A DNA stretch of 58,510 nt from Nocardioides stalactiti (GTDB lineage Bacteria > Actinomycetota > Actinomycetes > Propionibacteriales > Nocardioidaceae): contig NZ_JACEFC010000011.1 in the NCBI RefSeq assembly GCF_014180715.1, forward strand, positions 1 through 58,510. The letters are read 5' to 3'. Position numbers and translations under genes: made by a program. Shown piece after piece: positions 3,603 to 48,224 of this stretch; positions within the stretch are counted from its first letter, which is position 1, and the number at the start of each line of letters is the position of its first letter. The notes beneath the pieces were generated by a model. The model searched no databases and was not told the DNA's origin. It was given only the letters and a program-made list of their open reading frames with translations.

Positions 3603-3932
3603 TCAGGCGTTGTCGGTCTCCTCGCCCTCGTCGCCGCGGCGGCGCTCGGCCTTGTCGAGCTTCTCGGAGAGCTCCTCGAGGCGCTTCTGCTCCTTGCGGG
3701 CCTTCCAACCCTGCTTCGCGCCGTACTTGAGGAACCAGAGCCCGACGAACACCAGCGACGTGGCGACGACGGCGACGATGAACAGGGTGCTGGCGGACAT
3801 CTCGATGCCGAGGAAGGTCGTGTGGACGTCGGTCTTGCCGTCGCTCGTGGTCGCTTCCTCGCCGGCCTTGAAGATGCCGAGCAGGATGCCGAGGGCGCCG
3901 ATGGCGAGCAGGATGAGCCCGAAGATGACCAT
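3603..3932 (-). CDS. Small membrane protein with coiled-coil tail
   Basis: A 109-aa protein with two hydrophobic segments (about residues 2-20 and 48-68), an intervening polar loop, and a charged, probably coiled-coil C-terminus rich in Lys/Glu. It is convergent with the Cys-rich gene and follows the helicase gene on the same strand by 25 bases, so both may share a transcript. No catalytic motif is visible and the function is unknown. Confidence 0.65.
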   Translation of the reverse strand: MVIFGLILLAIGALGILLGIFKAGEEATTSDGKTDVHTTFLGIEMSASTLFIVAVVATSLVFVGLWFLKYGAKQGWKARKEQKRLEELSEKLDKAERRRGDEGEETDNA

Positions 3933-3957
3933 GCCCGGAGACTAGACCGCGAGCGCG

Positions 3958-6300
3958 TCAGCGGGCGAGCAACGCGTCGAGCAGCAGCACCGCACCCTGC
4001 TTGTCGAGGGGGTCGTTGCCGTTGCCGCACTTGGGGGACTGGATGCACGACGGGCAGCCGCTCACGCACTCGCAGGCGGCGATGGTCGCGCGGGTCGCGG
4101 TGAGCCACTCGCGGGCGACCGCGTAGCCGCGCTCGGCGAAGCCGGCTCCGCCCGGGTGGCCGTCGTGGACGAAGACGGTGAGGACGCCGGTGTCGGGGTG
4201 GCGTGCCGTCGAGACCCCGCCGATGTCCCACCGGTCGCAGGTCGCGAACAGCGGGAGCAGCCCGATCGAGCAGTGCTCGGCCGCATGAGCGGCCCCCGGC
4301 AGGTCGGTGCGCTCGAGCCCGCTCGCCTCGAGCACGTCGTCGGGCACCGTCCACCACACCGCACTGGTCCGCAGGGTGCGCTCCGGGAGGTCGAGCGGGG
4401 TCTCGTCGATCACCTCGCCGGTGCGGCTGCGCCGTCGGAGGTACGACGTCACCTGGTTGCTGACGTCGACGGACCCGAACGACACCCGGCACCGCCCCCA
4501 CATCTCGTGGGAACGCTCCTCCACGATCGCGATGTCGGCGACGTCGCGAGCGGTCGTCGTCCAGTCGACGTCGGTGCGCCGGATCTCCGCGACGTGGGTC
4601 TCCAGGTCGAGGTGCTCGACCAGCCAGGTGTCGCCGCGGTGGACGTAGACCGCACCCGTGTGGGCCGTGGTGTGGGCCCGGCCTCCGTCGACCGTCCCGA
4701 TCACGCGGCCGGTGTCGGCCTCGACGAGCTGGACCGCGGAGCCGCCGGTGGACCGGATGTCGGCGAGGTCGGCGGCGCGCCGCCGGTCGGTCCAGAACCA
4801 GCCCTGCGGCCGGCGCCGCAGGAGCCCGGCCGCGACCAGGTCGTCGAGCAGCCCGCGTGCGGTGGGCCCGAACAGGTCCAGGTCGGCCGGCGTGAGCGGC
4901 TGCTCCTGGGCGGCCGCGCACAGGTGCGGGCCGAGGACGTAGGGGTTGTCGGGGTCGAACACGGTGCCCTCGACGGGGCGGCCGAGCAGGGCCTCGGGAT
5001 GGTGCACCAGGTAGGTGTCGAGCGGGTCGTCGCGCGCGATGAGCAGGCCCAGCGCCCCGCCGCCGGAGCGACCGGCCCGGCCGACCTGTTGCCAGAACGC
5101 CGCCCGGGTGCCGGGATAACCGGTGATGAGCACGGCGTCGAGCCCGCTGATGTCGATGCCGAGCTCGAGCGCGTTGGTGGCAGCCATCCCCATCAGACGG
5201 CCGCTGCGCAGTGCCTCCTCGAGCTCTCGCCGCTCCTCGGGCAGGTAGCCGCCCCGGTAGGAGTCGACCGTGCTGGCGAGGCCCGGTCCGATCTCGGCGA
5301 GCAGGTCGGACGCGCGTCGCGCGACCTGCTCGACCCCGCGCCGGGAGCGGACGAACGCGAGCGTCCGTACTCCCTCGACGACCAGGTCGGCCAACAGGTC
5401 GGCGGTCTCGGCTGCGGCGGGACGGCGGACCGGAGCACCCTGCTCCCCGGTGTAGGACGTCAGTGGCGGCTCCCAGAGCCCGAGCGCGACCTCACCCCGC
5501 GGCGAGGCGTCGTCGGTCACCGCCTCGACGGCCAGTCCGGTCAGCCGCTGCGCCGCGACCTCCGGCTCGGCCACGGTGGCGGACGCCAGGACGAAGGTCG
5601 GCGACGACCCGTGGAGCGCGCACACCCTGCGCAGCCGGCGCAGCACCTGGGCGACGTGGGCGCCGAACACGCCCCGGTAGTGGTGGCACTCGTCGACGAC
5701 CACGTGGTCGACGGTCGCGAAGAACCGTGACCAGCGCTCGTGTTGGGGGAGCAGCGAGCGGTGGAGCATGTCGGGGTTGGTGAGGACGTACTCACCGTGG
5801 TCGCGGGTCCAGTCGCGCTGCTCCTGGCTGCTGTCGCCGTCGTGGGTGGCGACCCGGACGTCGAGCCCCAGGGCGTCGATGGCGGCCCGCTGGTCCTGGG
5901 CCAGCGCCTTGGTGGGCGCGAGGTAGAGCGTGCTCGACCCGCGCTGGCCGCGCGGCCCGCGCGCCGCCCGCGTGGCCGTGAGCGCCGGCAGCAGGTAGGC
6001 CAGGGACTTGCCGGACGCCGTGCCGGTCGCGAGCACGACGTGCTGCCGTTCGTGGGCGAGATCGGCGGCCCGCACCTGGTGGCGCCACGGGAGCTCGATC
6101 CCGCGGGTGGTGAACGCGGCGACGACCTCGGGGTCGGCCCAGGACGGCCAGGGCGCGGTCGCCGCCTGACGGGCAGGGATCCGCTCCAGGTGGGTCAGCC
6201 GGTCCTCCCGGGTCGACCCGGCCGCGAGCCGCCCGAGCAGCGCCACCGGGTCGGCGGCACCGGGCCCGAGCGGGGTCCGGGCGGTCACGGCGGCGGTCAT
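3958..6300 (-). CDS. DEAD/DEAH-box helicase with C-terminal DUF1998 Cys cluster
   Basis: A 780-aa superfamily 2 helicase of the MrfA/YprA type. Visible motifs in order are Walker A GTASGKS near residue 95, DECH near 190, SAT near 235, then the second RecA domain with 'AFVRSRRG', 'TNALELGIDISG' and 'QQVGRAGRSG'. The C-terminal DUF1998-like region ends in four cysteines ('CECVSGCPSC' plus 'KCGNG'). Homologues unwind DNA in 3' to 5' direction and MrfA acts in mitomycin C repair. Its place beside tad genes is the actinobacterial 'helicase/secretion neighbourhood'. The start at 6300 is chosen because longer frames run into the divergent gene. Confidence 0.88.
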   Translation of the reverse strand: MTAAVTARTPLGPGAADPVALLGRLAAGSTREDRLTHLERIPARQAATAPWPSWADPEVVAAFTTRGIELPWRHQVRAADLAHERQHVVLATGTASGKSLAYLLPALTATRAARGPRGQRGSSTLYLAPTKALAQDQRAAIDALGLDVRVATHDGDSSQEQRDWTRDHGEYVLTNPDMLHRSLLPQHERWSRFFATVDHVVVDECHHYRGVFGAHVAQVLRRLRRVCALHGSSPTFVLASATVAEPEVAAQRLTGLAVEAVTDDASPRGEVALGLWEPPLTSYTGEQGAPVRRPAAAETADLLADLVVEGVRTLAFVRSRRGVEQVARRASDLLAEIGPGLASTVDSYRGGYLPEERRELEEALRSGRLMGMAATNALELGIDISGLDAVLITGYPGTRAAFWQQVGRAGRSGGGALGLLIARDDPLDTYLVHHPEALLGRPVEGTVFDPDNPYVLGPHLCAAAQEQPLTPADLDLFGPTARGLLDDLVAAGLLRRRPQGWFWTDRRRAADLADIRSTGGSAVQLVEADTGRVIGTVDGGRAHTTAHTGAVYVHRGDTWLVEHLDLETHVAEIRRTDVDWTTTARDVADIAIVEERSHEMWGRCRVSFGSVDVSNQVTSYLRRRSRTGEVIDETPLDLPERTLRTSAVWWTVPDDVLEASGLERTDLPGAAHAAEHCSIGLLPLFATCDRWDIGGVSTARHPDTGVLTVFVHDGHPGGAGFAERGYAVAREWLTATRATIAACECVSGCPSCIQSPKCGNGNDPLDKQGAVLLLDALLAR

Positions 6301-6420: not shown

Positions 6421-6753
6421 GTGGACCTGACACTGTCGACGCGCGAGGTCGGTGGCCGCACCGTCGTCGCCGTGGGGGGCGAGATCGACGTCTACACCGC
6501 GCCCAAGCTGCGTGACGCGATCACGGAGCTGGTGGCCGCAGGCAGCTATGACCTCGTCATCGACATGGAGAAGGTCGAGTTCCTCGACTCCACCGGTCTC
6601 GGCGTGCTCGTCGGGGGCCTGAAGAAGGTCCGTGCCCACGAGGGCTCGCTCCAGCTGGTCTGCAACCAGGACCGGCTGCTGAAGATCTTCCGGATCACGG
6701 GTCTGGCCAAGGTGTTCACCATCCACGAGTCCACCGAAGCCGCCCTGGCCTGA
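6421..6753 (+). CDS. Anti-sigma factor antagonist (STAS domain, BldG-like)
   Basis: A 110-aa single STAS domain. It shows the BldG hallmarks '[12 protein letters not shown]' near residue 20, '[11 protein letters not shown]' with the phosphorylatable Ser near residue 57, and 'KIFRITGL' near 92. Unphosphorylated protein sequesters an anti-sigma factor and so releases a stress or developmental sigma factor; phosphorylation by a serine kinase stops this. GTG 6421 is preferred over ATG 6412 because BldG homologues begin at the equivalent 'MDLSLSTR' and GGGATGG stands upstream. No partner kinase lies in the window. Confidence 0.85.
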
Positions 6754-42150: not shown

Positions 42151-43122
42151 TCAGGCCGACCGGGCAGCCCGGCGATGGTCCCCGCCCGCGTCCCGGATCG
42201 CTACGGCGTCGGCCACCCGGTAGACCTTCCGGTTGCCACCGTCCCGGCCGCACGACCGGATCAGCGGCGCGAGCTCGACCGCCTGCTCGCCCTTCCGCTG
42301 CACGCGCATGACGCTCGCCCACGACCGGATCGTCGAGGCAGGGACGCCGATCCGCTGGGCGAGGTCGTCGGCGTTGAGGCGGTCGGCGTGCTTGATGTGC
42401 GCCGCCTTCACAGCGAGGTGGTACTGGTTCTCGGTGAGGTCGTCGTGGCACCGGGTGCAGCGGTAGCCGCGCTCGGCCTTGACCAGGTGGGTGCCGCACT
42501 TCACGCACGGTGCAGCGCGCTCGACCTGCTCGTCGGCGCGGAGCACCGTCTCGAGGTGGGTCTTGCACTGGGCGATCTCGCCGGCGAACGCGGGGAAGTC
42601 GATCAGGGGGTCCTGGGCGAGGTCGCTGAGGTTGCGCTTGATGTAGTCGGCCGCCGTCGTCACAGTGACGTTGGCCGTGCGGATGTGGCCGTAGTGCTCG
42701 GTGATCATCAGGTCCCAGACGCCGAGGACCCAGAGCGGGTGGTCCAGGCCGACGACGTCGTCGCGGTGGTTGCGGTAGCCGTGCTTGCGTCGCTGCTGCC
42801 ACTGCTTGACGTGGGCGGTGGGCCCGAGGAGGTGGGCGGCCTCTGATCGGTTGCCGCGCGTCAGGAGCTCGTCGACGAGGGGGAGGCCGGTCAGTTCGAC
42901 GATGCGCTCGATGTTGGTACGGATCTCGCTGATGCAGTTGGGGCAGGTGAGGTCGGTGACGTGCTCGCGGTCGCAGGTGCTGCAGTGGGGTCGGGTGCAG
43001 GGCTGGCAGCCGTCGCAGTCCCAGGCGAGAGGCGGATGCCAGCCGACCATCGGGCAGGCCACGGGGTCGTGGCGGTTGCGAACCAGACGGGGTTGGTCGC
43101 GCGCGATCCGGTAGCAGCTCAA
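42151..43122 (-). CDS. Zinc-finger/HTH DNA-binding protein
   Basis: A 323-aa protein. The first 60 residues hold several CxxC/H pairs ('CDGCQPCTRPHCSTC', 'CPNC'), the middle is helical, a zinc ribbon follows near 215-240 ('CVKCGT..YRCTRCHDDL'), and the C-terminus has an HTH ('ADDLAQRIGVPASTIRSWA') with a wing. It is probably a regulator. The TTG start at 43122 has AGGAGGG six bases before it. The mirror-image operator array lies directly upstream. Confidence 0.7.
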   Translation of the reverse strand: MSCYRIARDQPRLVRNRHDPVACPMVGWHPPLAWDCDGCQPCTRPHCSTCDREHVTDLTCPNCISEIRTNIERIVELTGLPLVDELLTRGNRSEAAHLLGPTAHVKQWQQRRKHGYRNHRDDVVGLDHPLWVLGVWDLMITEHYGHIRTANVTVTTAADYIKRNLSDLAQDPLIDFPAFAGEIAQCKTHLETVLRADEQVERAAPCVKCGTHLVKAERGYRCTRCHDDLTENQYHLAVKAAHIKHADRLNADDLAQRIGVPASTIRSWASVMRVQRKGEQAVELAPLIRSCGRDGGNRKVYRVADAVAIRDAGGDHRRAARSA

Positions 43123-43136
43123 GGTCGTCCCTCCTG

Positions 43137-43166
43137 GGGGTGGACAGGGGTGGACATGTCCACCCC
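43137..43166. repeat. Repeat array A: three copies of GGGGTGGACA
   Basis: Two direct copies and one inverted copy; the last two form a perfect 20-bp palindrome (43147-43166). The array ends 15 bases before the TTG of the zinc-finger/HTH gene and is an exact inverted copy of array B. Confidence 0.85.
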
Positions 43167-43256
43167 TGGGGTGCGTCGGCCTTGCACCTGCGGATGAGAA
43201 AATTCAGTTCTGACCTGGGCTTTTGCATTCGGTGCCCATGAAGGAGGCCGTTGCCA

Positions 43257-43286
43257 GGGGTGGACATGTCCACCCCTGTCCACCCC
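43257..43286. repeat. Repeat array B: inverted copy of array A
   Basis: One direct and two inverted copies of GGGGTGGACA; a perfect palindrome at 43257-43276. With three further matching bases the arrays form a 33-bp inverted repeat around about 85 bp. It starts 11 bases after the stop of the ATPase gene. Likely operator or replication-origin element. Confidence 0.85.
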
Positions 43287-43297
43287 TGTGTTCGGGG

Positions 43298-45049
43298 TCA
43301 CGAGTCGGCCCTCAGGCGGTACTTGCCGGTCGTGTTGCCGTGCCCGGTCGCTGCGGCGTCGTGCTCGATCTGTCCGGCTTCGATAAGCCGGTCGAGGGCG
43401 GGGTCGAAGTGTTCTCGGTCGCGGCCAGGCAGCGCGCCGCGCAGCGTCTTCCGTGATGTCCAGTCGCCTTCGCGGCGGAGCTTGCGGGTGATCCCGCGGC
43501 AGGCCCGTTGTACGGCGGCGTCGGCGAGCCGTTCGTCGACGTGCACGGCGCGGGCGGCTTCGGCGTCGGCGCGGGCGGTGTTGGCGGCGGTGGTCTTCTG
43601 CTGGAGGGTGGCGACGACGCGTGCTCGGGTGGCGTCGGACTTGGCCTGGACGATCCCGGCGAGGTCCCAGTCGGTGCCGGTGATGTCGAGGCGTTGGTCG
43701 GCGAGGGCGAGGGCGGCGGCGGTCTTGAGGCGGGCGAGGAGGGCGTGTCCGTCGAGGGCTTCGCCGTGGCCGCGGAGGCGGGCGAGGCGGGCCTCTACGA
43801 CGGTGTCCTTGGCGGTGTCGCAGACCCCGATGCGGATCCCTCCGTGGCCGGCGCGGTCGCTGACGTAGGGGGCGTTCCAGGTCCAGGGCTTGGGTTCGTC
43901 GGGTGCGTCGGTGGGTGCGTCGGGGTCGGTGGCGGGCATCCAGAGGAACCGTTGGGGTGTGCCGCCGTCGGCGTCGTCGAGGAGGCACGCGGCGCGCCCG
44001 GGTTGGATGCCGGCGACGAGGCACATGCGGTACTGGTGGGCTTCGACGATGATCCGCTTGGTGGGGTCGGCGTACCCGAACCCGAGCTGTTCGCCTGTCC
44101 ATCCGGAGCGAAGTTGGGGCATGAGGGTCGCGCCGCGCCGGTCGCCTTGGGCGGCGAGGGAATCGATTTCGGGGACGGAGAAGAGGACGGCGTGGCGGTC
44201 GTCGAGCCATTCGAGGTCGCCCTTGACGCGGCGCTTGTAGCCGTGGGCGATCCCTTCTCCGCTGCCGACGTTGTGGCTGGTGATGTAGCCGACGTGGAGG
44301 GCGTCGGCTGCGACAGCTTCGGCTGCGCCCTTGCCGGCGCCGGAGGGGCCGACGAGTCCGATGAAGAGGTTGAGGGAGGCGCGGCCGCCGACGATCGGGG
44401 GGATGCAGACCTGGTGGGGGGTGGCGGTGATGATGCGGGCGAGTGCGACGCCGAGGACGGCCCAGGGGGAGACGCGGCGGGCGCGGGCGAAGGTGTGGAG
44501 GTGGGTGAGGATCGGTCGGGCGCCCCAGAACGCGTCTTCGTCAACGGCGGGGGAGGTGAGGTCGGTGGGGTTGACGATGGTGACCTGGGGGTCGTAGGTC
44601 AGGGTCGGGGTGCGGGGGTGTTGGGCGCCGGCGCGCATGGCGGAGGTGTCGTCGTCGCGGAGGACGGTGTCGATCTCGTGTTGGGGCAGTCCGGCTTTGC
44701 GGGCGGCGTCGGCGAGGGTGGTGCGGACGAGGTCTTGGGTGATGGTTCCGGCTCCGATGTGTCGGCCCATGTTGAACCAGGCCTTGTTGAGGGCGTGGTT
44801 CCTAGTGCCTTCGGGGGCGGTGGCGACGAGTTCGGTTTCGCCGCGGAGTGCAGCGAGGGCGTAGGGCGCGGCGTCGTGGTCGCCGTTGATGATCGTGAAC
44901 TTCGGCGGGTCGGCGACGGTGGGGGCCGGGGGCTTGAGGCTGTCGAAGTACCCGATGACTAGCTCACCCTTTCGCTTGGAGCGACGCCGTTGTTGCGTCG
45001 GACGGTCGGCGTACGGTCGAGATCGAGAGGCGGCACCAGGTCGCCGCAC
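43298..45049 (-). CDS. P-loop ATPase, probable replicative helicase (DUF3987-like)
   Basis: A protein of about 550-583 aa. Walker A 'GLVGPSGAGKGAA' lies near residue 238 and a Walker B-like 'AVLFSVPEIDSLA' near 288; the rest resembles DUF3987 helicase-type proteins that pair with a primase-polymerase, as encoded at 47571. The start is unclear: the conserved part begins 'GYFDSLKPP' right after AAAGGGTGAG, but no ATG, GTG or TTG is there, and GTG 45049 adds an Arg-rich leader that overlaps the divergent promoter region. Confidence 0.7.
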   Translation of the reverse strand: MRRPGAASRSRPYADRPTQQRRRSKRKGELVIGYFDSLKPPAPTVADPPKFTIINGDHDAAPYALAALRGETELVATAPEGTRNHALNKAWFNMGRHIGAGTITQDLVRTTLADAARKAGLPQHEIDTVLRDDDTSAMRAGAQHPRTPTLTYDPQVTIVNPTDLTSPAVDEDAFWGARPILTHLHTFARARRVSPWAVLGVALARIITATPHQVCIPPIVGGRASLNLFIGLVGPSGAGKGAAEAVAADALHVGYITSHNVGSGEGIAHGYKRRVKGDLEWLDDRHAVLFSVPEIDSLAAQGDRRGATLMPQLRSGWTGEQLGFGYADPTKRIIVEAHQYRMCLVAGIQPGRAACLLDDADGGTPQRFLWMPATDPDAPTDAPDEPKPWTWNAPYVSDRAGHGGIRIGVCDTAKDTVVEARLARLRGHGEALDGHALLARLKTAAALALADQRLDITGTDWDLAGIVQAKSDATRARVVATLQQKTTAANTARADAEAARAVHVDERLADAAVQRACRGITRKLRREGDWTSRKTLRGALPGRDREHFDPALDRLIEAGQIEHDAAATGHGNTTGKYRLRADS

Positions 45050-45269: not shown

Positions 45270-47102
45270 TCACGCTGCACCGACCAGGGACTCAGCGACG
45301 GCGGCGATCAGGTCGCGCGCGGCTGGCGGCGTGACGGCGTTGCCGGCGAGCTTGACGCGCTCGCGGCGGGTGCCTGCCCACAGGTAGTCGGCGGGGAACG
45401 CCATCCCGGCGGCGACCTCGTGGGGCTCGAGCATCCGGAACATGCAGTCGTCGACCTGCGCCTCGGCGGCGGCGATCTCGCCGGGGGTGACGAGGGACTG
45501 GTGGCCGCTGGTGGTGAGGGTGCGGAGGTACTCGGCTGCGGGGGTGAGCATCTCGCCGCCGTCGCCCTTGCTGCTGTTGTGCCGCTGGATGAGCGCGTAG
45601 CGGTCGACCGTGGTGAGGGTGCCGACCGGCTTGTCGACGGGCTGGGAGCCCTCGGCGTTGCCGTAGTACGGCGTCAGCATCGCCGACGTCTCCCGGGTCG
45701 TCATGGTCCGGTGCGGCTCGTCGGTGGACCGGGCGTCGTCGTTCCACGTCCCGCCGGCAGGCACCACGAGGCCGTGGTGGTTCCCGGACGCGGTGATCGT
45801 CGAGAGCGGGTGTGATGCGGGCCGGGCGTCCGACCCGCCACCCCGGAGCTCAGCGATGAAGGACGGCTTGGGGTCGGGGCCATGGAGGTGATCGGGCCAC
45901 GAGTAGCCGTGCGGGTTGGGCTTGCCGCACGTCGGGCAGATCCAGACCTCGTCAGTTCCGCCGTCGACGGAGACGAGCGCATCGAGGTGGCGTGAGGTCT
46001 GGGTGCGGAGCGGCTGGCTGGCGCTGTTCACCCGGTCGCCTGCCCGTCCCTCGAGGGGCACGACGAGCCCCTTCGACTCGATCGTGTGCAGCACCTTGAG
46101 CGGCTCGGACATGGGCCACGCCCGGTAGTAGGCGTTCGGGTCGCCGAAGCTCTTGTGCTTCGGGTCGGCGGCGTCGTACTGGTTGCCGGACGCCTCGATG
46201 TGGAACGCGCCCCAGTACTTCGCGATCCCGGCCGCGATCCGGCGGCGGGTCTTCTCGGCGAGGTCCTTCGTCCGGTCGCCGATCCGGGAGCCCCGGAGCG
46301 ACCAGTCGATCGCGGCGGCGGCCGGAAGGTAGCCGGGCTCGACCGTGGTCCCGCACCCGGCGTGGAGGTAGACGTACTGCGACCGGTACTTCCCGACCGT
46401 GCGGCCGTTCTTGAAGACCTGCTGCGACTCGACGACGGCCGAGCACTCCGGGCACCACGCGAGCGGCCGCATGACGGCGTCGATGTTCGGCGCACGGTTG
46501 CCCTTGAGCCAGAACACGATGTAGAGCCGGTCGCGGGACTGCGGCGCCGGGTCGCCGTGCGCCTGGGCGTGCATGCTGTTGAGCGACACGACCCGGAACT
46601 CGTAGCCGAGGTTGATCAGGCCCTTGCGCCACAGCGCCCACTCGGGGGCGTACTTCCGGTTGGTCGCGATGTCGACGACGTTCTCGATCACCCCGGCCCG
46701 GTAGCGGTGGTGCTCGACGAACCGGAGGACGTCGAACATCAGCAGCCGGGAGCGGCGGACGATCGCCGTCTCGGGGTCCTCGTCGACGAGGTCGGGGTTC
46801 AGCAGCTCGAGGAGGTCCCCGTCGAGCGACGTCGAGATCGACGAGTACTTCGCGCCGGACGCCTGAGACCACTTGGTGCACTCGGGGGAGGCCCACAGGA
46901 TGTCGGTGCGGGGGAAGTAGCGGGGGTCTTCCTCGTGGAGGTCGACGGCGGCGTGGTCGGCGTCGGGGTGGTTGCTGTTGTGGACCTCGACGGCGAGGTC
47001 CCAGTGGTTGGCGGCCATGCGGACCTGAATGCCGGGCACGGCGATCATGCCGGTGCTCGATCCGCCACCGCCGCAAAACAGATCGGTCACGGTGAGGGTC
47101 AT
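45270..47102 (-). CDS. DNA cytosine-C5 methyltransferase (orphan)
   Basis: A 610-aa enzyme with motif I 'DLFCGGGGSSTGM', motif IV 'ASPECTKWSQ' (catalytic Cys in PEC rather than PPC), motif VI 'GVIENVVDI', motif VIII 'QSRDRLYIV' and motif X 'GNAVTPPAARDL'. The long target-recognition part (about 200-540) contains two zinc-like CxxC pairs and five copies of a 'P..T.T.....ALV' phrase. No restriction enzyme is nearby, so it probably protects phage DNA or changes its regulation. It overlaps the upstream gene. Confidence 0.88.
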   Translation of the reverse strand: MTLTVTDLFCGGGGSSTGMIAVPGIQVRMAANHWDLAVEVHNSNHPDADHAAVDLHEEDPRYFPRTDILWASPECTKWSQASGAKYSSISTSLDGDLLELLNPDLVDEDPETAIVRRSRLLMFDVLRFVEHHRYRAGVIENVVDIATNRKYAPEWALWRKGLINLGYEFRVVSLNSMHAQAHGDPAPQSRDRLYIVFWLKGNRAPNIDAVMRPLAWCPECSAVVESQQVFKNGRTVGKYRSQYVYLHAGCGTTVEPGYLPAAAAIDWSLRGSRIGDRTKDLAEKTRRRIAAGIAKYWGAFHIEASGNQYDAADPKHKSFGDPNAYYRAWPMSEPLKVLHTIESKGLVVPLEGRAGDRVNSASQPLRTQTSRHLDALVSVDGGTDEVWICPTCGKPNPHGYSWPDHLHGPDPKPSFIAELRGGGSDARPASHPLSTITASGNHHGLVVPAGGTWNDDARSTDEPHRTMTTRETSAMLTPYYGNAEGSQPVDKPVGTLTTVDRYALIQRHNSSKGDGGEMLTPAAEYLRTLTTSGHQSLVTPGEIAAAEAQVDDCMFRMLEPHEVAAGMAFPADYLWAGTRRERVKLAGNAVTPPAARDLIAAVAESLVGAA

Positions 47103-47482: not shown

Positions 47483-47571
47483 GCTGCGTCCTGGTCGTGT
47501 TCGGGGCAGCCGGGGTCGTAGCCTCCGGAGTCCTGGTGGCGGGGGTCGCAGGTGCACGTGTCCGGCGCCAT
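47479..47571 (-). CDS. 30-aa Cys-rich protein
   Basis: A short ORF: 'DTCTCDPRHQDSGGYDPGCPEHD'-type content with three Cys and two His, probably zinc-binding. Its ATG overlaps the primase stop and its stop overlaps the next ATG (ATGA), so it is tightly coupled on both sides. Similar tiny proteins are common in actinophages. Confidence 0.6.
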   Translation of the reverse strand: MAPDTCTCDPRHQDSGGYDPGCPEHDQDAA

Positions 47572-48224
47572 CACGCCGCCCCGTCCGTGAGGTCGAGGTT
47601 GGGGGTGCCGAGGAACTCGTAGTGGCCGGGGTGGTGGTTGTCGTACTTCCGCGCCGCCTCCTCTGTGATCACCGATGGCGGCGCGACGACGTACCCGCCC
47701 TTGCCGCGGTAGTCGACGCCCGGGACGATGCCGGCGCGGTTCCCGTCACCGGTCGCGGGAACGTAGATGTGCATCCCGCCCGGACGGGGGGTGAGGACCT
47801 TGGCGAGCTGGTCGGCGTCGACCTTCGCGAACACCTCGTCCCAGTGCCGGGCACGGCTGGTCTGTCCGGGGAGGCCGTCGATGTCAACGACGTCGACGCG
47901 ATGTCCGGTGGCGAGTCCGATGTTGGCGTCGGGCTCGGCGTTCCACCAGCCGTTGACGACGTCGGGGTTGGAGGATCCGTCGAGGCAGCCATTGGAGCCC
48001 TTGAAGGGGATCTTGGTGCCCGGGATGAGAGGGAAGACGCGGAACCCGCGGGCGGCGTACCAGAGCGCGACCGAGTGGAGGGTCGCGGCCTTGCGGCGTT
48101 CACGAGCGAGGCGGTCGAGCTCGTCGACGACCTTCTCGGCCGCAGCGGCTCGGGTGTCGTCGCCGGCGCGCCAGGCTTCGATGAGCTCGGCCTCGGCCTC
48201 CTCGAGCGTCTGCGGGCCGCTCAT
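47571..48224 (-). CDS. Primase-polymerase (bifunctional Prim-Pol domain)
   Basis: A 217-aa protein. After a helical leader (1-45), the AEP core shows 'ALWYAARGFRVFPLIPGTKIP', catalytic 'VDVVDIDG' near residue 112 and 'PRPGGMHIYVP' near 148. It lays primers and may extend them. The domain stands alone and the helicase part is a separate gene (43298-45049). Confidence 0.88.
   Translation of the reverse strand: MSGPQTLEEAEAELIEAWRAGDDTRAAAAEKVVDELDRLARERRKAATLHSVALWYAARGFRVFPLIPGTKIPFKGSNGCLDGSSNPDVVNGWWNAEPDANIGLATGHRVDVVDIDGLPGQTSRARHWDEVFAKVDADQLAKVLTPRPGGMHIYVPATGDGNRAGIVPGVDYRGKGGYVVAPPSVITEEAARKYDNHHPGHYEFLGTPNLDLTDGAA

Follow-up and report, generated by a model that had tools for sequence, protein, structure and literature searches.

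Mirror-image repeat arrays behind a phage helicase gene as a probable replication origin in an actinobacterial prophage

In a 58,510-nucleotide stretch of DNA from Nocardioides stalactiti (hereafter, the window), two mirror-image arrays of a 10-bp unit lie directly behind the helicase gene of a prophage. From their sequence setting, these arrays are very probably a prophage replication origin of the type known from staphylococcal islands (SaPI/PICI), with the phage's own helicase (43298-45049, minus strand, 583 amino acids) as its reader. Under the mechanism we propose, this replicative helicase would act as the initiator and recognize the 10-bp units by its C-terminal winged helix; a pair of helicase rings would be seated on the opposed arrays, face to face over an AT-rich spacer, the spacer would be melted between the rings, and a Prim-Pol would then prime two forks. 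We infer binding, ring loading, melting, and the start of replication at the arrays from anatomy, recurrence, predicted folds, and covariation.

The unit, GGGGTGGACA, has six exact copies in the window, all within 43137-43286. They are ordered direct-direct-inverted (+,+,-) in array 1 (43137-43169) and direct-inverted-inverted (+,-,-) in array 2 (43254-43286), the exact mirror of array 1. These two 33-nt arms are 100% complementary and have 84 nt between them, confirming an earlier note on this DNA that had described six units forming a mirror-image 33-bp inverted repeat. At up to one mismatch, GGGGTGGACA matched 11 times in the window (5.5 expected), a number reached in 2 of 100 shuffles; the five one-mismatch matches fall outside 43137-43286. 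Each array contains one copy of a 20-bp palindrome, GGGGTGGACATGTCCACCCC (43147-43166 and 43257-43276). Across the 4.55-Mb host genome, the palindrome at up to two mismatches was found at the two array sites only, and the exact 18-bp core was missing from 293 other sampled genomes of the family. The spacer (43170-43253), a proposed unwinding element, has a GC content of 57% compared to 70% for the window, with 1.4% of 84-bp segments equally low; among 40-bp segments, 0.1% are as poor in GC as its lowest 40 bp (42.5%). The window's GC skew gave no information.

The arrays occupy most of the 175-bp gap that runs from the helicase stop to the start of a gene for a zinc-finger/HTH-like protein (42151-43122, minus strand), which is where the earlier note had placed them, and 11 nt lie between the helicase stop and the array region. 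The surroundings are those of a prophage, with genes for TerL, a head protease, a tape measure protein, an integrase, an exonuclease, and a Prim-Pol, and a cytosine methylase-like gene. The Prim-Pol primase/polymerase (47571-48224, minus strand) is upstream, in the helicase's replication module, and tblastn (E 0.001) found a Prim-Pol relative in 32 of 89 helicase loci. Between Prim-Pol and helicase, the cytosine-5 methylase-like gene (45270-47102) scores below the NCBIfam dcm cut-off; it holds long inserts, as 290 phrog_116 positions are spread across 608 residues.

The earlier note had proposed that related phages be searched for the unit, and this search linked the arrays to the helicase. 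We sought the exact 18-mer GGGTGGACATGTCCACCC in 84,980 species genomes and 2.9 million viral contigs and found 18 matching stretches (15 from genomes and 3 viral), the named hosts being Micromonospora veneta, M. phaseoli, and M. rosaria. Clustered arrays were present in 6 of the 18 (L003, L004, L008, L018, L019, and L022; five distinct, with L003 and L019 identical in sequence). These six are exactly the stretches with a tblastn relative of the window helicase; in the other 12, where matches were isolated or scattered, there was no helicase relative within the 6.6 to 8 kb examined. Two opposed arrays around a spacer with an AT-rich stretch were seen in L003/L019, L008, L018, and L022. In L004, one array follows the helicase, and a second, longer array of the same unit (6625-6705), with five direct copies and one inverted copy, lies about 3 kb from it.

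To extend this beyond a single unit sequence, we gathered helicase relatives from phage records and viral contigs. Searching the viral contigs with the window helicase alone gave three pattern matches and no relative; when ten aligned relatives served as the query, 71 of 105 matched stretches were obtained, representing 70 loci. From 90 records with a match, including the window, eight were dropped (duplicates or fewer than 440 nt behind the stop), and the remaining 82 formed 57 families under 90% identity with one representative each, the window included. We computed a gapless inverted-repeat score for the 500 nt around each representative's helicase stop and compared it with 12 control segments elsewhere. 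By this gapless measure, applied to loci with a helicase in common, 42 of the 57 families outscored every one of their own controls; in 41 of those 42 the array started within 70 nt of the stop. A score of at least 16 was reached by 33 of 57 families and by 2 of 684 control segments, with the AT minimum falling between the arms in 30 of these 33 families. The layout, an inverted repeat at the helicase stop, is general across families.

Fifteen of the 57 families did not beat their own controls. In four of these (L030, L033, L051, and L060), visual inspection shows imperfect arrays, and the family of L004 fails through its representative, with its member L035 scoring 24. No array was found near the helicase in L073 (whose family includes Catdawg and Firecracker, phages of the Corndog type), L075, L078, L093, or L094, and L092 has a single inverted repeat 2.7 kb upstream. 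Within the window's genus, the helicase was found in 5 of 196 genomes; all four loci other than the window's scored above controls, two of them narrowly (L109, 11 vs 10; L111, 13 vs 11) with opposed palindromes visible. In a sample of the phylum, the helicase occurred in 6 of 396 genomes at seven places, counting the window's. Two of the six other places have arrays after the stop (L117 and L118, the latter from 151 nt on), and four (L113-L116) have none there. In L113, L114, and L116, repeated palindromic units sit inside the 3' coding tail of the helicase (gapless scores of 11, 11, and 16, with no control set), so the putative origin in these loci may be translated; L115 has no such units inside the helicase gene either. 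Elsewhere, phage annotations as deposited put a small “hypothetical protein” gene over the putative origin (L023:3468-3698, L098:3709-3939, L103:3712-3984, L104:3712-3984, and L106:3721-3972), and these annotations may not be real genes.

The unit sequence differs between families while the mirrored arrangement is kept, mostly flanking an AT-rich spacer and often with the palindrome on the inner side of the arrays. Observed units include GTGGACA, GTTGGACA, GTCGGAC, GTGGCCA, GTGGAGGC, GTGTCAGC, CCTGGAA, TTTGCTGG, GGTTCCGAGGG, TGTACAC, and TGGTGACGA. As a separate observation, the motif AGGTCAGA, picked after looking, recurs near helicase ends of unrelated families, with 7 sense copies in 30 kb compared to 6 in 526 kb elsewhere. 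It is found in the window spacer (43209-43216, minus strand), in the spacers of L024, L110, and L119 (the last outside the counted set), in the coding tail of L114, and behind the stop in L077, which is not a counted array family; two of the seven copies (L027 and L097) are in coding DNA before the arrays.

We next turn to the protein. From its AlphaFold2 model (583 residues, mean pLDDT 82), the window protein is predicted to be an MCM-like AAA+ helicase with a C-terminal winged helix. Its core (residues 176-476) aligns with MCM helicases in VIA (best Z 15.7, rmsd 4.7 over 262 residues, 13% identity), and MCM-type chains make up the best 50 Foldseek matches (E values from 1.5e-6 to 8e-5, with a whole-protein TM of about 0.3). 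Taken on their own (pLDDT 85), the 92 C-terminal residues match winged helices in VIA, with Rpa2 as the best match (Z 10.8, rmsd 4.1, 79 residues) and with many of the matches being winged helices of unrelated function, such as those of cullins; in Foldseek, the C-terminal winged helix alone had no match at E 0.001 or less. A sequence profile of the C-terminal part matched the winged helices of RPA32 (E 0.004) and MCM4 (E 0.03) weakly. Among 45 relatives, Pfam (E 0.01) assigned DUF3987 to 40 and AAA_lid_2 to 3, and DUF927 and D5_N/Primase_Cterm were not among the five Pfam families listed. The window helicase itself falls below the DUF3987 cut-off and has no NCBIfam match. SaPI Rep was absent among the matches listed in the sequence and fold searches, to which we give no weight as evidence.

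The C-terminal winged-helix part (residues 506-583; 43301-43534, minus strand) is the proposed reader of the units. We compared array similarity with the similarity of helicase parts across 39 families, using statistics that ignore phylogeny. After controlling for the core, the C-terminal domain predicted array similarity (partial r 0.41, p 0.0005); after controlling for the C-terminal domain, the core hardly did so (partial r 0.13, p 0.055). Among 50-residue segments the association peaked at residues 499-548 (0.47); the last 35 residues of the helicase, which are encoded closest to the arrays, gave just 0.09, which disfavors mere linkage. Among 12-residue segments the peak was at residues 534-545, KTLRGALPGRDR (0.49; codons at 43415-43450, minus strand), compared to a maximum of 0.32 in 400 permutations over 100 segments. 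In the model these residues form the end of one helix (533-539), a turn, and the start of another (542-557), and they are predicted to lie at the place of the recognition helix, the DNA-reading helix of a winged helix. An association between RD[RK] and GGAC (18, 6, 3, and 12 of 39; Fisher p 0.001) was selected post hoc and ignores phylogeny. In both of the loci with at least four GTGGCC words (L025 and L083), SRDR is preceded by T.

Close relatives point to the same part of the protein. We took four switch pairs, picked by looking and not at random, from seven inspected groups of close relatives and calculated identity over all but the last 85 alignment columns and then over those 85, counting units in a 270-nt region. 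The Gordonia phages Santhid and Hibiscus are 94% and 74% identical by these two measures, with 7 vs 0 copies of CCTGGAA and 0 vs 10 of CGTGGAC. The corresponding values are 98% and 76% for prophiGD05-1 and prophiGD17-1 (GTGGAGG, 6 vs 0; GTGTCAG, 0 vs 8), 96% and 88% for L065 and L083 (GTGGACA, 7 vs 0; GTGGCCA, 0 vs 11; spacer largely common by eye), and 93% and 73% for L068 and L106 (GTCGGGC, 10 vs 0; GTCGGC[CT], 1 vs 11). Thus, in four pairs that are 93-98% identical outside the winged-helix domain, the unit has been replaced and the winged helix differs too. These sequence comparisons make the helicase, via its C-terminal winged helix, the likely candidate for reading the units.

The switch pairs also bear on the possibility that a DNA secondary structure (a cruciform or stem-loop) is what is recognized, as proposed for pRN1, and that the units matter only as its stem. 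The arms do remain complementary though their sequence changes, as described for pRN plasmids in PMC4234260. That account places the pRN1 origin just downstream of orf904, as one 100-nt stem-loop without iterons whose fold is conserved and whose sequence is not; a prim-pol, a helicase, a C-terminal winged helix, and an arrangement conserved without its sequence are features that pRN1 shares with our loci (PMC4234260). Unlike pRN1, an archaeal plasmid with an SF3 helicase and an iteron-free stem-loop, the window has arms made of repeated units. A stem needs no repeated unit within each arm, however, and members of the switch pairs differ in 6 to 11 copies at once, with the sequence tracking the recognition helix. 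We consider recognition of structure unlikely and, by analogy with these arrays, the pRN1 origin may deserve a second look.

Palindromic operators are common, and of the two readings offered in the earlier note, one was looping repression of the 43122 gene. Here, the 42151-43122 protein or another regulator would bind both arrays, loop the DNA, and silence the downstream gene. Array 1 does almost abut the ribosome-binding site of that gene (43129-43135, one base away), and some Gordonia relatives carry a MerR-like HTH gene 1-2 kb downstream, which is unrelated and not matched by the 42151-43122 tblastn. But the 42151-43122 protein, which has no Pfam match and is not conserved with the arrays, has no homologue in the 89 helicase loci (tblastn, E 0.001; a few kb at most on each side), which belong mostly to families with arrays, so looping repression cannot explain the family; one weak relative was found in phage records, in Microcystis phage MinS1. 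The genes behind the arrays vary (endonuclease VII, resolvase, hypothetical), promoter and terminator scans found nothing, with no sigma-70-like promoter in 42900-43500, and the units follow the helicase winged helix. Operator arrays are thus quite unlikely, and a local influence on the 42151-43122 gene is possible as a side effect, because its ribosome-binding site almost abuts array 1. The note's other reading, an iteron-like phage origin, agrees with what we observed: the arrays keep their position after the helicase gene, they oppose each other across an AT-rich spacer, and their units vary along with the helicase's predicted DNA-binding domain.

Binding of the arrays by host DnaA is very unlikely, despite a resemblance in sequence. 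The unit core TGTCCAC corresponds to 7 of the 9 bases of the actinobacterial DnaA box, TTGTCCACA; at least three TGTCCAC copies are present in 17 of 47 array families, and L059 has three exact boxes. The window arrays, however, have no box at up to one mismatch, at least three such boxes occur in only 3 of 47 families, and TGTCCAC is absent in 30 of 47. Phage genomes carry packaging and partition sites, and TerL is 3 kb from the arrays, but such a site in place of an origin is extremely improbable, as the arrays accompany the helicase gene across families and no terminase or partition gene is annotated beside them in the phage records examined.

The phage origin that we propose resembles several described systems. 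As described in PMC6092414 and PMC7581432, SaPI/PICI origins pair a Rep helicase with iterons, lie directly 3' of the helicase gene with a primase nearby, and are recognized by the helicase through its C-terminal domain. The window arrays likewise sit immediately 3' of the helicase gene (11 nt), and a primase, here Prim-Pol, is near the helicase. Unlike these satellites, the window phage has its own TerL, head protease, tape measure, and integrase, and the arrays are found in phages with terminase, capsid, and tail genes; the helicase is DUF3987-like rather than DUF927 or Primase_Cterm, there are palindromes within the arrays, and the unit code varies among close relatives. By analogy, then, the element appears to work like a SaPI origin and is no PICI. 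The putative origin of SCCmec Cch2, as presented in PMC7581432, also has repeats downstream of the helicase gene that are bound in vitro by the helicase C-terminal domain; it differs in that three short direct repeats are needed and inverted repeats are dispensable for binding, and in its Primase_Cterm/D5-type helicase (PMC7581432). Mycobacterial extrachromosomal prophages, which likewise concern origins of actinobacterial phages, are described in PMC7157519 as having RepA-like protein or RNA-based origins, and the words helicase, primase, and inverted repeats are absent from its text. A Gordonia phage study reports inverted repeats and states that no replication origins were identifiable (PMC4524720). 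A literature search of open-licence papers found no description of the origin proposed here.

The module is also found on a circular element. Two records matched the helicase in a plasmid search. Nonomuraea gerenzanensis plasmid III (L119/L121; 59,257 bp, circular) has capsid, portal, and terminase genes along with the helicase, and directly behind the helicase it has ATGTGGACA arrays round an AT-rich spacer (50,000 bases inspected). Judged by its gene content, it looks like a phage-plasmid carrying the helicase-array module; it also has its own dnaN. In the second record, Tsukamurella plasmid 8, where the match covered 48% of the query, a repeat scan of L120 from 3900 to 4400 showed one hairpin and no opposed arrays.

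Taken together, these results indicate that a putative origin of SaPI-like design turns up repeatedly among families of phages and prophages whose helicase is of another kind. We tentatively suggest, as a possibility that falls somewhat short of even odds, that actinobacterial phages share a lock-and-key origin: an MCM-like helicase would carry its own address-reading domain, and the address would be rewritten wholesale, repeats and recognition helix together, with hardly any change in the remainder of the helicase or, in some cases, in the spacer. Changes of this kind would set types of origin incompatibility, and competitors or satellites exploiting the phage helicase may be what drives them. 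The set of loci suggests a rule by which origins in actinobacterial phages could be located, and the way a winged helix selects its DNA could be tested with natural allele pairs such as Santhid and Hibiscus. If confirmed, these origins may give small replicons for actinobacterial genetics.
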